50,606 bases of DNA from Syntrophomonadaceae bacterium (GTDB taxonomy: Bacteria > Bacillota > DSM-12270 > Thermacetogeniales > Thermacetogeniaceae): the NCBI GenBank assembly GCA_012840385.1, contig DULK01000079.1, positions 1 to 50,606 of the forward strand. The letters are read 5' to 3'. Made by a program: the position numbers and the translations under genes. The notes under the pieces are model-generated. The model did no database searches. It saw only the letters and a list, made by a program, of their open reading frames with translations, and had not been told where the DNA came from. This document shows positions 3,443 to 16,654 of this stretch, one piece after another; within the stretch, counting starts at the first letter, position 1, and each line of letters begins with the position of its first letter.

Positions 3443-4135
3443 TTGTTGCCTCCTGCCAAAGGCAAAAAAGCCATATACTTTTTCCCAGGTTCGTTTGGGT
3501 GGGGCTATGCTGGAGGTGGTTCTAGGTGCCTTGCATTAAGCATTCTTGCCGACGCGCTTGATGGTGATCTTGAGTTAGCCCAAAAACTTTATCAACAATT
3601 CTTCGAAACCTTTATCCTCTCTCTAGACCAATGGAAACCCTTTCGAATCCAGCGCACGGAGGTAATTGACTGGTTACGAAGGCAAGGGATGCCCGATGAA
3701 GACCTACGACGTTGCCAAGAACTCGCTAGACGTCGCAGACAGTGCTACGCCCCAGAAATTGTAAGGCGAGAGCTTATTTTGAAGGAAAACCTGTACGAAC
3801 AGCGCTTCGACGTTATTCCAACGGATTCTGAGAGCGCACTTTATTTGGATCTTTGGCAAATGCTCCAGAGTGGAAAACGGATTTTTCGCTGCAATTGGTG
3901 TAAACTCCCTATTCCATGTGACGGATCATCTAGGAGCAATCGCCAACGTGCTCGCTGGGAGAAAGGCGAACCTATCTATCATCAACGCTGTCATTACGAG
4001 GCAATCCGAAAACAAAAACAGGATTACTGGAAACGCAAATCGCAAGACCCAAACTTTAGAGAACGAAAGCGTGTCTATGCCAGGGAACGCCGCCGAATAA
4101 AAAATCGCAAAACCTTTAATACTGTCAGCGGCTAG
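3443..4135 (+). CDS. DUF6166-like protein with C-terminal Zn-finger-like region
   Basis: 230 residues from a TTG that immediately follows an in-frame stop. The N-terminus reads FGWGYAGGGSRCLALSILAD, the pattern of DUF6166-type proteins found on phages and mobile elements. The centre holds CNWCKLPI (about 149-156) and a second Cys/His pair (YHQRCH) separated by basic residues, a treble-clef or zinc-finger-like arrangement. The C-terminal 40 residues are very basic (KRKSQDPNFRERKRVYARERRR) and could bind nucleic acid. A good terminator follows. Function unknown. Confidence 0.6.
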   Translation: MLPPAKGKKAIYFFPGSFGWGYAGGGSRCLALSILADALDGDLELAQKLYQQFFETFILSLDQWKPFRIQRTEVIDWLRRQGMPDEDLRRCQELARRRRQCYAPEIVRRELILKENLYEQRFDVIPTDSESALYLDLWQMLQSGKRIFRCNWCKLPIPCDGSSRSNRQRARWEKGEPIYHQRCHYEAIRKQKQDYWKRKSQDPNFRERKRVYARERRRIKNRKTFNTVSG

Positions 4136-4195
4136 TGGCCTCCCTTGCTGATTGGCCTTCAGAGCCTCATATTTGCCCTACAAGGGCACGAAAAA

Positions 4196-4228
4196 CCGGG
4201 TAGGTAATAAAAAACCCGGCCTTTTTTG
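4196..4228 (+). terminator. Rho-independent terminator
   Basis: CCGGGT (4196-4201) pairs with ACCCGG (4214-4219) and is followed by CCTTTTTT. It ends the DUF6166-like transcript. Confidence 0.75.
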
Positions 4229-4380
4229 GCCGCTCTACGGACCTTCTAAAGGCCTTTCCAGAGGATTATTTGCCCTCCAATGGCAGCAAAAAAGCAGGCA
4301 AATAGGAAAATTGCCTGTCCGCCTCTTACCGTCCCCTTCTAGGGCCTTATTTTTGCTTTAGGATTTCGCCCGAATCACAA

Positions 4381-4641
4381 TCAAGAATGCTTCTTTATAT
4401 ACGCTTCCAACACTTCTAGTGCCGCCTTAAGTTCGCTCAAGACTTCCCATCCGCTAATGGGAAGCTCCGCCCCCATATGCAGGGACTTGGTGCCATCTCC
4501 TCTGTAAGCTTGGATTCGCAGGTCGTCACAGCCGGGCCAATCCTTGCCTGGGTCTCTCTGAACCGCCTTAACATAAGTAATCCTTACGTTCTCCACCTCC
4601 ACATATGGTTGCCCCTTGGCATCAGTTTGAATTTGGATCAT
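4381..4641 (-). CDS. Small conserved hypothetical protein
   Basis: 86 residues with an excellent ribosome site (AAAGGAGGGG seven bases before ATG). The sequence IRIQAYRGDGTKSLHMGAELP suggests a compact beta-rich fold followed by a C-terminal helix (EVLSELKAALEVLEAYIKK). Small proteins of this type accompany mobile and phage-derived genes, but I cannot assign a function. It stands alone on its strand, convergent with the preceding gene. Confidence 0.55.
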   Translation of the reverse strand: MIQIQTDAKGQPYVEVENVRITYVKAVQRDPGKDWPGCDDLRIQAYRGDGTKSLHMGAELPISGWEVLSELKAALEVLEAYIKKHS

Positions 4642-4878
4642 CTAAACCCCTCCTTTGGTTTATTTTGCTTTCATAATAGTAGACGTCCAGCCCCACCGAA
4701 TACAGCCATTCCCACCGCTTTTTTCTCCAAATACCCACCTGCCGCCAAACTCGCAGGAAAGAGCAGTTCTTGCGGGGTGAAAGACCTGCCGCGCAAGCCA
4801 CTAACGACGCTCCCCACTCGAGTTAACGGCGGGGGGGCTTGCCTTGTCTTCTAGTACCGCGGCCATTTGCCAGGGTAT

Positions 4879-5010
4879 TCACAAACCCTTATCCCCCTCC
4901 ATGAAATCGCCTATAGGCGAGGGCATGGCCTCCTCGCACGCCGTTACCCACTTGGCGAAGTCGGTCATCCGCGGCAGCCGATCTAATCTGACGCAAGCAA
5001 TTAAGAAACC
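4879..5010 (-). pseudogene. Phage-type replication/primase-helicase relic
   Basis: The minus strand reads VRLDRLPRMTDFAKWVTACE and then EAMPSPIGDFMEGDKGL before a stop. The phrase LPRMxDFAxWVTA is typical of the C-terminal part of phage- and plasmid-borne primase/helicase-like proteins. Nothing else of that gene is intact; the rest of 4650-5100 shows only broken reading frames. Confidence 0.4.
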
Positions 5011-5105
5011 CTTGTGGCTGCTGGCAGATGCAAGATTCAGGCGTCCCCTACCTTTTGGTTAAGTGTTTATGAAGTTCCGTAAAGTAAAATTCTGCGTCCT
5101 GTCTC

Positions 5106-6073
5106 TCAGTCTTCAGCCCCTTGCTCATCGAAGTTTGCCACCAGTTCGGCCAGACTGCGCCGGTGGGTGATCCGGCGGTGTACGTCTATGATGTAGATCA
5201 CCCCGTCATCACGATTAAGACTGTAGGCTCCGGGTTCTTCGCTCAGCACCACGCAACCCTCAAAGGTATTAAAAGATTGATGTAGTCAAAGATAGCGTTG
5301 CTCGAGACTATGAGGCCACCGACGAGCCAGTCGGGATTGTCCACCACAAAGAGCCGGGGCTTCTCCTGACCTAGGAGACGGATCTCTCCCCTTATCCCTA
5401 CCCTTGTAGCTTCCTCTCGGCTGACGTCTTCTTTCTGAAGCATCGCACGTACCTTGGCCGCCGCAGGGTCATCTAGGTACCTGGTTCCCAGCTCTTTATA
5501 GGCCAGTTCGTAGGCGATCTTGAGGATGCCGCGTTGCCAGTCCCAGAGGTTGAAACATACATCCTGTTTGATCTGGGGATGTTCCACGATCACTTCCCGG
5601 CGGCTAATCTGGTTCAGAGTACAGCTTTTCCCTGTCTTAGCAACATAACGAGTGGCGATTCTTTCTAGTATCTCTGGAAGTTTATTCTCGTCACTCTTGT
5701 TCAGGATAATACGGATCCTTTCTTCGCCATCTACCGTCTCCTTTTTTACTTGTGGAATCACATACAGTCTTTTGGCTTTTTCATCAGCACCGAACTCGTA
5801 GCGCACCTTGACCTCTGGCTCATCCACCAGAACACCCCTCTCCAGAGGATTTGGCACGCAGCCGCTCTTGCCCGGAAGCCTGAGCAGCATTCTCTTAGCC
5901 TGCATGAGCCAGTTGTTGATCAGGGGTTCTTCTACAAAGCGGCCAAGGTGAGAATTACATGCCTGGCAGACCTCGCGGATGACTTGCGTTCCACCTAGTG
6001 CCTTGGGAAAGATGTGTTCCTGACTAGCCATTTCATCGGGTAAATCTTTAAGGCAGATTATGCACCTGAACAA
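5106..6073 (-). CDS. HNH endonuclease-like protein, probable frameshift near its end
   Basis: The N-terminus carries a Cys4/HNH finger (MFRCIICLKDLPDEM, then EHIFPKALGG and VCQACNSHLGRF), the pattern of HNH nucleases of restriction and phage systems. The frame from 6073 stops at 5243 after 276 residues. Shifting one base near the CTTTTAA run at about 5255-5262 opens a coherent extension (EGCVVLSEEPGAYSLN, then DDGVIYIIDVHRRI) to a stop at 5106. The gene probably once encoded about 320 residues and has either a one-base deletion or a short natural end. The middle region is unrecognised. A role in restriction or defence is an inference. Confidence 0.6.
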
Positions 6074-12893: not shown

Positions 12894-13275
12894 CTAGGCG
12901 TTTTTCTTAACTGCTGGGTTTATGGAGAAGAGACGGGGCGGTTCTTTGACGGCTAAAGCCTTGAATATCTGCTCCTGAGCAGGGGTGGTTTCGGTCCTCT
13001 GCCTTACCTGACCGGCAGCCCCGCTGAACTCTCCCAGGTGCATCCTCTGCAGGGTGGCCCTGAGGCTGCACCAGGTTTGCCCCGTCCTGTTCTCGGCAAT
13101 TCTGATTAACAACAGCGCCAGCCAGCAGAGCAGTACATGGGCGCGGATGCGGTCTTCCAGGCGGTGATAGACCGGGCGCAACTCCAAGCGGGACTTGAGG
13201 GTACGGAAGGCGTCTTCCACCAGCAGCAGCTGTTTGTAGCCCAGGGCGACATCTTCGGAGATGTCATCAAAACGA
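12894..13275 (-). mobile_element. IS1634-type transposase, 3' fragment
   Basis: Reads VALGYKQLLLVEDAFRTLKS, RLELRPVYHRLEDRIRAHVL, then CWLALLLIRIAENRTGQTW, the C-terminal third of an IS1634/IS4-group DDE transposase, including the catalytic Glu region (YHRLEDRIRAH). The 5' two thirds are absent; the break lies at about 13265-13290, exactly where the NUDIX gene of the next operon ends. Confidence 0.8.
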
Positions 13276-13677
13276 TATCTCAACAATACTATTATTGTTA
13301 TAACGCATTGCATGATCTAAGAACCAATCTAAGAAATAAGCTACATCGTTTTTATTTTCTTCAACAAAACTAATGGGCAGCCAATATAGTTGACCTTCCT
13401 GGTTTGCAACAATATTCCCTGTGAAATGGTGAGATGCAAATACATAGATTTTAGTATCTTGCACAGTTATAGCACCAACCAATTTAATGTCATTTAGTTT
13501 TAAGCTTGTTTCTTCGAAAATTTCACGAATACAAGCTTCTTCTATGCTTTCGCCGACCTCTACCTTGCCGCCTGGTGCATTCCACTTGCCCTTAAAAGGG
13601 CTTTTTCCTCTACGCTGTAAAAGTATATAATTTTCGTTTAAAATCAAACAGAGTGTGTAAATCTTATAGGCACACAT
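13267..13677 (-). CDS. NUDIX hydrolase, last gene of the QueC operon
   Basis: 136 residues; start is the ATG at 13677-13675 overlapping the QueC stop (TGATG). The Nudix box is almost canonical: GGKVEVGESIEEACIREIFE, then ETSLKL (REUxEE present, the Gly of EExGU is Ser). Family members hydrolyse nucleoside diphosphates linked to another group. The preceding YILLQRRGKSPFKGKWNAPG is MutT-like. The last residues (NNNSIVEISF) may come from the adjoining transposase fragment, so the natural C-terminus could be lost. AT-rich like its partners. Confidence 0.85.
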   Translation of the reverse strand: MCAYKIYTLCLILNENYILLQRRGKSPFKGKWNAPGGKVEVGESIEEACIREIFEETSLKLNDIKLVGAITVQDTKIYVFASHHFTGNIVANQEGQLYWLPISFVEENKNDVAYFLDWFLDHAMRYNNNSIVEISF

Positions 13678-14294
13678 CAAAAATCATCCTTAATCTCCTT
13701 TAATGCCCAATAACGATCAAGGCAACTAGGACATTGCATGCAGTGATGATCAACTGCCATTTCACAAGAAAAAGTTGCATTTAAGGGCATACCTATTTCT
13801 TTTGCGATTAATGCTACTGACTTTTTTTCTAGGTTTATAAAGGGATAATAGATATTTAATTCAGGAAATGATTTTCTCAAAGCTGTTTGTGCAGCTTCAA
13901 AAAATTCGGGGGTAGTATCTGGAAAAGGATTGATAGGTATTTTTATTGCACCGATGTAAATATCGTTGATTCCTAATTTTTGAGCAAACATTGCTGCTAT
14001 TGTAAGCAAAAAAAGATTTCGCTGAGGCATAAATGATACAAAATTAGAAGTCCATTGTTTTGTACCTTTTTCAAATAAGCAACCCACCTTAAGGGAATTA
14101 TCTAATGGAATATTTATTACAGTCAATTTGAAGTTTGCCCACGACGAAATGTATTCTGCCGCTATTTTTTCGGTTTTAGCCATTTTTTGGCCGTAATCTA
14201 TAAATAAACCTTCTATTTGTTTCCCTTCTTTTTTGAGCTTACAAGCGAGTGTACTACTATCGAGTCCACCGGATAGCAATATTAATCCTTTCAT
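13677..14294 (-). CDS. QueC-like PP-loop synthetase
   Basis: 205 residues, close to the normal QueC length. PP-loop SGGLDSS at 8-14, conserved MPQRNLF near 89-95, DTTPEFFEA near 125, and a zinc site formed by C177, C185, C188 and C191. QueC adenylates 7-carboxy-7-deazaguanine and converts it through the amide to the nitrile preQ0. No queD, queE, queF or folE is nearby, so a role in tRNA queuosine is not supported by context. QueC homologues have been recruited to antiphage systems (Qat, type IV CBASS). Stop and start codons overlap with both neighbours, so the operon is tightly coupled. Confidence 0.88.
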   Translation of the reverse strand: MKGLILLSGGLDSSTLACKLKKEGKQIEGLFIDYGQKMAKTEKIAAEYISSWANFKLTVINIPLDNSLKVGCLFEKGTKQWTSNFVSFMPQRNLFLLTIAAMFAQKLGINDIYIGAIKIPINPFPDTTPEFFEAAQTALRKSFPELNIYYPFINLEKKSVALIAKEIGMPLNATFSCEMAVDHHCMQCPSCLDRYWALKEIKDDF

Positions 14295-15532
14295 TATTTT
14301 ACCTTCCCATACTTTTCATATAAATAATCTATTAAACAACGTAATGATTCACAAGTTAACTCAGTGCTCAAGTTAACCATTAGATTGAAAGAATTAGTAC
14401 ATGTTTGAATTGCATATATTGGCTTATTGAGGGCGTAAGCGTACCCACATTCCCAAACGGTACCTGGATCTTCGTAATCAAGCAAGGCTACAATTAACGT
14501 AGCTTCTTTTATTGCATTAATATTTTTTTTAAAAGATTTAACAGCTAATCTTGGTACTATTCCATCTTCATGCCAAGGACTAAATAAACTGAAACCACAC
14601 TTTTTTAACGCATGGTATGTTTGACTTACCATATATCTTTCTCCATCAGAAAAAAAGGGTCCTGCTAGGTAGATCTTAATTTTTTGAGCTTGTTCAGGAT
14701 GTATGAATTGTTTTCTTCGTGATTTAATTTCCTCTTGTAGGTTCCACGGTGTAGAACGAAAATCGAAACTTTCAATAAAGACTGATGCGGCAGCCGCAGC
14801 TGACAATCCCGAAAGTTCTAGATCTTTGGTATTGTGGTATGTAACTAAAAATACAGCATTAAATACGTCACCGGCACCTACAGTAAATTGATAATTACTT
14901 TGAAAGGAGGGAATATCTATTCTGCTTTCTTTTTGTCTATAAATACTACTACCACCTTGCCCGAACTTAGTAACAATTATTTTAACACCCTTCTTAAAAA
15001 AGAGGTCTAATATTTCCTGAAACGATTTTTTAGTATATGAAAGAACGTCTGAAGTGCTAATAAAAAGTATATCTATTTGGGATAGATTCTCTAATCCTAG
15101 AACTAAATCAATGTCGTATTGTACATCTAAACCTTTTAAAGAATCAGAATATTGATTGATATAAGTGTCTAAGTGTAAATAAGGATAAAATAATACTACA
15201 TCAGATATCGGAAATGTATTTGGCATTTTAATTGGATAACGGTTTTTCTTAAAGTTAACGGACAATGGAAGAACTTCATCTACATGATAAAGCATATAGC
15301 GTGTGGTTGGTCCTGGAACACGTTGAAGATATTTGTCTGGTATTTCGTATTGTTCTAGAAAGTCTACAATTAGTTTTTCGTCTTCATTCCCCATATGTCC
15401 CACGATTGTTGTTTTTGCCCCAAGTTGTCTGCCAGCATAAGCTGAATAAAATGCTCCTCCAGGTCTAGGTGGTTTCTTTTCGAGATAATCTAAACAGACT
15501 TCCCCAATTACAGTGAAATCATAAGTATCCAT
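14294..15532 (-). CDS. Fusion of PfkB-type kinase and nucleoside 2-deoxyribosyltransferase
   Basis: 412 residues. Residues 1-270 are a PfkB/ribokinase-like domain: GGAFYSAYAGRQLGAKT near the start, TKFGQGGSSIY, and the anion-hole/catalytic FTVGAGDVFNAVF with its Asp. Residues about 280-412 form a nucleoside deoxyribosyltransferase-like domain: KIYLAGPFFSDGERYMVSQT, then DYEDPGTVWECGYAYALNKP, which keeps the catalytic Glu. NDT enzymes cleave or exchange the base on a deoxynucleoside, and PfkB enzymes phosphorylate sugars or nucleosides, so a combined base-exchange and phosphorylation step is plausible. Four bases separate it from the upstream small gene. Confidence 0.85.
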   Translation of the reverse strand: MDTYDFTVIGEVCLDYLEKKPPRPGGAFYSAYAGRQLGAKTTIVGHMGNEDEKLIVDFLEQYEIPDKYLQRVPGPTTRYMLYHVDEVLPLSVNFKKNRYPIKMPNTFPISDVVLFYPYLHLDTYINQYSDSLKGLDVQYDIDLVLGLENLSQIDILFISTSDVLSYTKKSFQEILDLFFKKGVKIIVTKFGQGGSSIYRQKESRIDIPSFQSNYQFTVGAGDVFNAVFLVTYHNTKDLELSGLSAAAAASVFIESFDFRSTPWNLQEEIKSRRKQFIHPEQAQKIKIYLAGPFFSDGERYMVSQTYHALKKCGFSLFSPWHEDGIVPRLAVKSFKKNINAIKEATLIVALLDYEDPGTVWECGYAYALNKPIYAIQTCTNSFNLMVNLSTELTCESLRCLIDYLYEKYGKVK

Positions 15533-15536
15533 AATA

Positions 15537-15851
15537 CTAACACCTGTATACTCTTATTTTCGCTGATTCTTTATCAAGGAGAACTGCATTATAGGAATAT
15601 TCACGTTCTTTGATGCATTTATAAAGATTACGATTAAATAATCTGCCAATAGGTTTGTCTTCAAATTTAATAATTATAGTTTGATCATCAGGGTCTATCT
15701 CTAAAGTAAAAATAGATCCTTCAGTAACTTCCTTCTCCCATATATCTATATTACCGGAGTGGAGTATATCGTTAATTTCTGTAATTATTTCTTTGGGACA
15801 AGGAGAGCCTCCATCAGGAGGAGGAATTGGAGTATTACCATCGCCACACAT
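15537..15851 (-). CDS. Small protein with exposed-Cys N-terminus, first gene of the QueC operon
   Basis: 104 residues if started at the ATG at 15851, which has GGAGGTG six bases upstream; the upstream in-frame ATG overlaps that ribosome site and is unlikely. The resulting N-terminus is MCGDGNTPIPPPDGG. Methionine aminopeptidase normally removes Met before Cys, which would leave a free Cys-Gly-Asp-Gly end followed by a flexible Pro/Gly linker. The rest looks like a small alpha/beta fold (FTLEIDPDDQTIIIKFEDKP). No family recognised. Its position before PfkB-NDT and QueC genes suggests a regulator, adaptor or substrate of those enzymes. Confidence 0.7.
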   Translation of the reverse strand: MCGDGNTPIPPPDGGSPCPKEIITEINDILHSGNIDIWEKEVTEGSIFTLEIDPDDQTIIIKFEDKPIGRLFNRNLYKCIKEREYSYNAVLLDKESAKIRVYRC

Positions 15852-16240
15852 AACTTTCACCTCCATGAAATAGGTATAATATGAGTAAAAAATAAACCGT
15901 AAGGCTTTGTTAATTATAGAAATAGAATATAAACATAGTCACTTTACCATAGTTGCTACGACAGGGAAACAAAGGAAGGAGTTCAGCTAGAGAAGGAGAT
16001 ATTGTGTGGTTTAGAGGTCAGCGTTACAAGCTATCTAACAATAGGTATGCTATATCTAAAGGTGGAGTTGCTGTTTAGGTAAGGGTAGCAATAAAATATA
16101 TCTATAAGTTATACTTTATTAGTTAATACGACATAAATTCTCGTAATCCTGCAATAATAAGACTTTTTTATTAATATAATGACTAATCGACGATTGTCAT
16201 TCATTTGATGCATTATGGTGCTCAGAAAGTGATCCATTCC
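15852..16240. other. AT-rich intergenic region upstream of the QueC operon
   Basis: About 390 bases, probably holding the operon promoter on the minus strand (a TATTAT -10-like hexamer lies about 25 bases before the first gene, without a good -35). On the plus strand a 24-codon frame (16004-16078, GTG after AAGGAG) encodes a basic peptide I do not recognise. No repeats seen. Confidence 0.4.
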
Positions 16241-16264
16241 CTAACACATTGCTTTATACAACAA

Positions 16265-16654
16265 AATCGTTTCACGTCTACCTGAGCTGCATTTCCGGCG
16301 TTGAATTGCCGCAGCCGCGCTGTCAGCAAGGGTGAAGGCCGAGTTGATCAGGGATGACGCCCGCCCTTTGACTTCCGGCCCAAACCGCACCAGGCCGATG
16401 TCGAGGCCCATTGTGGCGATGGAGGCCACCAGGCCTGAGGCGGCGTTGAGGGCGGAGCCGATACCCACCTCGGAATGGGAGAAGCAGCGGGCCATGACGT
16501 TCCAGAAGACGAAGCCGAGGATGGAGGTGGCGGCGGTGTTGAGTATCAGGTAGAAAGCGTTGCTGTAGAGGGAGGAGCGCCTGGCTTTGAGGCACAGCTG
16601 CAGCAGCGGCAGCCGTATGGTGCGCGATTTCAGTTCGTGGATGTTGATGCCCAA
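16265..16654 (-). pseudogene. Oligosaccharide flippase, N-terminal fragment
   Basis: TTG start after GGAGAAAGG. Reads SLYSNAFYLILNTAATSILG, FVFWNVMARCFSHSEVGIGS and ATMGLDIGLVRFGPE, the first two to three membrane segments of a Wzx/MATE-type polysaccharide flippase (family length about 420-480). It breaks off near codon 125. The 3' end of the same kind of gene is found five times elsewhere in the window on the same strand. Confidence 0.75.

Follow-up and report, generated by a model that had tools for sequence, protein, structure and literature searches.

The window analysed here (contig DULK01000079.1 of a Syntrophomonadaceae bacterium, 50,606 nucleotides in all) contains a reverse-strand operon of four tightly packed genes: a small candidate acceptor protein comes first, followed by a PfkB-NDT fusion, a QueC-like enzyme and a NUDIX hydrolase. 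Comparison with related operons suggests that the QueC-like enzyme probably conjugates a deazaguanine to the N-terminus of the first protein, which would be its acceptor. The features of the operon are as follows.

15537 to 15851, reverse strand: candidate acceptor gene, 104 amino acids, with an MCGDG N-terminal tag, a short linker and a HIRAN-like beta domain
15837 to 15851, reverse strand: codons of the N-terminal tag M-C-G-D-G, of the motif class M[S/G/C]G kept in relatives
15540 to 15800, reverse strand: HIRAN-like domain, spanning Cys18 of 'SPC' through the final residue (AlphaFold2 model with a predicted local distance difference test score, pLDDT, of 69; Foldseek)
15858 to 15864, reverse strand: ribosome-binding site GGAGGTG, 6 nucleotides 5' of the inner ATG (15851) and overlapping the upper ATG
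14294 to 15532, reverse strand: PfkB-NDT fusion, 412 amino acids, with GAGD (residues 219-222) and GT..E (residues 357-361)
13677 to 14294, reverse strand: QueC-like enzyme, 205 amino acids, with SGGLDS, YGQ(x)5E, MPQRN, FPD and CE(x)6CxxCxxCxD
13267 to 13680, reverse strand: NUDIX hydrolase, 137 amino acids, the fourth gene, overlapping the QueC stop codon

The PfkB-NDT fusion joins a sugar/nucleoside kinase fold to a nucleoside 2-deoxyribosyltransferase; its gene starts 4 bases past the stop codon of the first gene, and the QueC-like and NUDIX genes each overlap their upstream neighbour. The fourth gene, NUDIX in the window, differs between relatives. With a G+C content of 33-36% within flanks of 40-57%, the operon looks acquired. 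A scan for sigma-70 promoters did no better than on shuffled sequences. Fragmentary open reading frames flank the operon at 12894-13313 and 16241-16654 of the window, one without a Pfam match and the other a truncated polysaccharide-flippase-like piece.

The first gene (15851-15537) encodes a 104-residue protein, MCGDGNTPIPPPDGGSPCPKE...IRVYRC, and heads the operon, as the first-pass annotation had proposed. In its start region, ATGGAGGTGAAAGTTATG, GGAGGTG (15864-15858) lies six bases ahead of the inner ATG (15851). Since the upper ATG is overlapped by GGAGGTG, which is well spaced to the inner one, translation is expected at MCGDG, the start originally chosen, and this start matches the annotated starts of homologues, which yield M[S/G/C]G. 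The upper ATG (15866; MEVKVMCGDG) was rejected: it abuts the ribosome-binding site, has no Shine-Dalgarno sequence of its own and is contrary to the homologues. Removal of Met before small second residues is an established rule, and Cys is thus expected at the N-terminus.

Related operons

The small protein, used as a query against viral contigs and 398 genomes of the phylum, found only itself, and relatives were therefore reached through its PfkB-NDT and QueC neighbours. It is not recognised by Pfam, NCBIfam or PADLOC models. The gene order of first protein, PfkB-NDT and QueC-like enzyme was found in more than 25 distinct loci on plasmids, viral contigs (eight loci) and E. coli chromosomes, spanning proteobacteria, cyanobacteria and haloarchaea, and in nearly all of these operons the first gene encodes a short protein belonging to a single family. 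The plasmid hosts are Rhizobium, Agrobacterium, Azospirillum, Methylocystis, Roseivivax, Moraxella, Pseudomonas, Citrobacter, Burkholderia, Cupriavidus, Proteus, Synechocystis and haloarchaea; the E. coli chromosomal islands account for a match in 22 of 5,426 genomes, with most of the query matched in 18. Two sets of matches were not used: those of a PfkB-NDT search of genome contigs, which covered the NDT half only (marine-biofilm, Helicobacteraceae and Sulfurimonas metagenome-assembled genomes), and those of a profile search of the phylum, which besides the window's own gene were partial PfkB or NDT matches.

The N-terminal tip of the first protein

Position 2 is Ser, Gly or Cys in 29 of the 30 operon-opening proteins, the window's included, and 27 of the 30 also have Gly at position 3. 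Among the remaining annotated genes of these loci, 1 of 139 has the M-[S/G/C]-G form, a difference for which the Fisher value of 8e-27 is only indicative, the sequences being related (25 are left once near-duplicates are removed). Entropy is 1.2, 0.6 and 1.1 bits at positions 2, 3 and 5 and about 3 bits or more at positions 8-20, and Gly and Ser make up 83% of residues 2-7 versus 27% of residues 8-20. The conserved feature is a small residue followed by Gly, with position 2 mostly Ser in relatives. Of the MCGDG sequence, whose invariance among homologues the first-pass annotation had proposed as a check, the M-[S/G/C]-G form persists in those 27 proteins and the Cys does not: it stands at position 2 in only 2 of the 30, the window protein and L022, and was accordingly set aside as the key residue. 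Nor is the PIPPPDGG linker, singled out earlier as flexible, conserved.

Variable or extended N-termini, which would count against an acceptor role, are for the most part not what the relatives display, the tip being the best-conserved part of a variable tail and staying in place even where a linker of about 190 residues leads to the domain (L012). Haloarchaeal linkers are wholly different in length and composition and keep the tip (MGGGSGG, MGGGGSS or MCGGGSR), and three relatives, from Neotabrizicola, Cupriavidus and Proteus, form a second subfamily with MG[ST][ST]GSG. There are two exceptions: L019 starts MSSG, and in L023 (Azospirillum brasilense, 3602-5765) the first protein has no tag and QueC has SGGVES for SGGxDS, a single case in which tag and QueC loop look to have decayed jointly. 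In the window protein, residues 1-14 are predicted to be disordered (pLDDT below 50, AlphaFold2). The proposed acceptor role thus finds support of a comparative kind, in the conservation of the tip and the recurrence of the operon.

Tips of this form are known from published systems. In type IV CBASS (cyclic-oligonucleotide-based anti-phage signalling system), Cap9 puts 7-deazaguanine on a protein N-terminus, with NDG (N-terminal deazaguanylation) on the CD-NTase MGGS (PMC11996544); the window tip is MCG and those of relatives are mostly MSG or MGG, as against the MGG, with free N-terminal Gly, of the type IV CBASS partner. The tip of QatB, MGTS, has the same form as the window-type tip (PMC13279940). 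Like the window operon, qatABCD has a dedicated substrate-like protein with a disordered N-terminal tail and a conserved tip, adjoining a QueC-family enzyme. Unlike it, QatB is all-helical, whereas the acceptor candidate is modelled with a beta domain, and the window QueC (205 amino acids) lacks extensions; the window operon contains PfkB-NDT and NUDIX genes and no genes for the QatA ATPase or QatD nuclease.

The QueC-like enzyme

The best PDB match of the window QueC is Cap9 (9NTO, 1.7e-15, versus 2.1e-12 for QueC 3BL5), and the PADLOC QueC model gives it 110 bits versus 87 for the canonical QueC of the host. A tree groups it with Cap9 weakly and on long branches, too many of which are present for the two to be claimed as sisters. 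Asp126, Arg92, Tyr34, Gln36 and Glu42 are invariant across the QueCs of the operon family; Asp126 corresponds to the residue that reads the guanine edge in Cap9 and QueC and is lost in QatC. The host genome (G000, a 2.7-Mb assembly) has its own canonical queD, queC and queE on another contig (G000:C30), queD and queE being named by sequence and by position beside queC. The operon QueC should therefore be spare for queuosine synthesis, and 7-carboxy-7-deazaguanine should be available. All members keep the PfkB GxGD and NDT GT..E motifs, apart from L031, L032 and L124, which have a broken NDT, and a second copy in L070.

Sister operons and the defence setting

The three operons with the broken NDT motif carry a TIR-TGT fusion and an OGG gene, and after QueC they encode a ThsB-like TIR protein starting MGGGSSG, MGGGGGG or MGGSSTG.

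L031:1089-5500, L032:1107-5501 and L124:4452-8858: type-IV-CBASS-like operons without CD-NTase, comprising PfkB with broken NDT, TIR-TGT, OGG, QueC and an MGG-tipped TIR protein

They look like a link between the window-type operon and type IV CBASS, with the tag moved to another fold; the three are closely related to each other and may be a single event. The window operon shares with type IV CBASS a Cap9-type QueC and a partner with a small residue and Gly at its N-terminus; sister operons additionally have an N9-glycosyl enzyme, TGT or a different one, and a gene resembling OGG. It differs in that the candidate acceptor is HIRAN-like (a TIR protein in L031, L032 and L124) and in having PfkB-NDT in place of TGT; a Pfam scan found no CD-NTase among the four window genes and no Cap10 TGT in the window operon. 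An OGG gene (PF22175), usually present in relatives, is likewise absent from the window's genome. Neighbours of the relatives include GajA and GajB of Gabija (E 1e-256 and 3e-151), an anti-phage dGTPase (3e-146), ThsB and HEC-05, together with OGG, Dam, Mrr and nitroreductase genes. Judging from such gene contexts, the operon is rather likely an anti-phage system.

A different function has been assigned to part of this family. Libby et al. 2026 placed QueC cluster 4 in purine salvage from its PF00294-PF05014 neighbourhood, naming no acceptor (PMC13329287). The QueC-like and PfkB-NDT enzymes would then act on free nucleobases or nucleosides, with the first protein as a regulator or accessory. 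The plasmid and E. coli relatives fit cluster 4, with an adjacent PfkB-NDT and the zinc motif CH(x)5CxxCxGCxK; the window QueC also adjoins PfkB-NDT, but has the zinc motif of cluster 9 (Cap9), CE(x)6CxxCxxCxD. Salvage accords with PfkB and NDT being nucleoside enzymes and with the VUT-family (queuosine precursor) transporter encoded just downstream of the operon in two loci (L015:6497-7072 and L018:6470-7009), a hint of a deazaguanine substrate. It nevertheless leaves unexplained the tag of the first protein and the presence of that tag on TIR proteins beside QueC, and it sits poorly with the operon's scattered occurrence on mobile elements that also carry defence genes; we regard it as fairly unlikely.

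The HIRAN-like domain

AlphaFold2 models the window protein as a disordered tail and a beta domain; the model was built with an alignment of relatives and so is not fully independent of them. The relative L068 gives a better model, with a core pLDDT of about 90. For both models the top Foldseek matches are 3K2Y (lp_0118), which we take to be a HIRAN protein, and the HIRAN domain of human HLTF (4xzg), with 4s0n and 6kcs also matched (probability 1.00). Compared with a set of HIRAN domains, the family profile gives a match of 93% (E 2.9e-7); QueC and kinase controls stay below 1%. The Pfam HIRAN model (PF08797) gave no match above its cut-off, and in a search with a HIRAN-only profile the window protein does not stand out, at rank 233 of 2,458. 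The HIRAN-like label accordingly rests on the fold model and the family, since by sequence the HIRAN-only profile misses the window protein. Although the fold is kept, the acceptor family lacks the REP.N..D..AI stretch found in ordinary HIRAN sequences, and binding to DNA ends should therefore not be assumed.

The fold also bears on a second alternative, in which the product of the operon is a soluble deazaguanine nucleotide that acts as a signal, with the HIRAN-like protein as receptor and the Gly/Ser tail as no more than a flexible arm. HIRAN binds a DNA end in HLTF; QueC, NDT and kinase form a plausible path to a free nucleotide, which the window NUDIX could destroy. However, the three-residue tip is far better conserved than the rest of the arm, and a flexible arm needs no such tip; moreover, two QueC-type defence systems in the literature act through the N-terminal tip of a partner protein or require it (PMC11996544, PMC13279940). 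A soluble signal therefore appears unlikely.

Proposed mechanism

In the favoured reading, conjugation to the first protein, Met would be removed to free an N-terminal amine, that of Cys in the window and of Ser or Gly in relatives; QueC would activate 7-carboxy-7-deazaguanine, from host QueE, with ATP and join the activated base to this amine as an amide, as Cap9 does in type IV CBASS. Less confidently, NDT may then add a deoxyribose to the tethered base at N9, or exchange one there, and PfkB may phosphorylate the sugar to give a protein ending in a deazaguanine nucleotide. In the sister operons TGT would take the place of NDT and the tag would lie on the TIR protein; the HIRAN-like domain would be a sensing or targeting body. 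Action of NDT and PfkB on the tethered base is suggested because in every case the partner enzyme is one that acts as an N9-glycosyl enzyme, be it TGT or NDT, one being lost where the other is present. That the operon is a third QueC-based protein-tagging system in which these two enzymes make the tethered base into a nucleotide on a HIRAN-like protein is a tentative proposal.

Several observations weigh against conjugation of deazaguanine. The Gly/Ser tail could be a plain linker, and position 2 varies: Ser in most relatives, Gly in the Cap9 and Qat substrates, Cys in the window. Across 398 genomes of the phylum the search turned up no sister operon. By sequence, the window protein is only weakly similar to its family: hhalign gives E 3.5e-4 and a probability of 37%, and hmmsearch gives E 0.25, albeit at first rank among 2,458 decoys and open reading frames, which include 2,000 shuffles and all open reading frames of the window. 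What places it in the family, as a remote member, is its gene position, its N-terminal tip, its model and a conserved Cys where the domain begins. Finally, the QueC pocket reads His-x-Asp-Gly in most relatives, not Tyr-Pro-Asp-Cys, and therefore another acid could be the donor there. QatC likewise has an altered base-recognising pair, its product being left unresolved in the published work (PMC13279940). Yet the guanine-edge Asp is invariant in the operon family, the window and L031-type enzymes retain an aromatic at the position of the Tyr (FPD), and the partners NDT and TGT are guanine or nucleoside enzymes; it is thus quite improbable that QueC joins a carboxylic acid other than 7-deazaguanine to the N-terminus.

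Protein-nucleobase conjugation was first reported in 2025, in one defence system, and a second was proposed in 2026. The present operon suggests a third and widespread form, in which an acceptor is identified and the partner enzymes differ; its occurrence in E. coli strains that have been sequenced makes a direct mass-spectrometry test easy. It is probably an anti-phage variant of the protein-tagging theme of type IV CBASS and Qat. In the open literature no paper was found that describes it as a protein-tagging or defence system, subscription papers and some preprints lying outside the search. Tagging, if true, would replace the purine-salvage reading of the whole QueC subfamily, and a non-canonical QueC next to a protein with an M[S/G/C]G tip provides a sequence rule for finding more such systems.

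Further loci

In three E. coli islands (L173 of strain KMi029, L174 and L177), located at tRNA-Sec and near yjcB, the operon is accompanied by genes for OGG, Dam and dGTPase, and L173 additionally carries Gabija; they may offer a ready-made test bed. In L070 (4150-7835) one QueC lies between two acceptor genes (MSGNSG and MSGMNP), the second of which precedes a degenerate copy of PfkB-NDT (GAGN, without the catalytic Glu). A Streptosporangium plasmid (L021:1821-5985) encodes QueD, QueE, a hypothetical protein, QueC, NDT and a TIM barrel, a cluster that looks like a deazaguanine nucleoside pathway.
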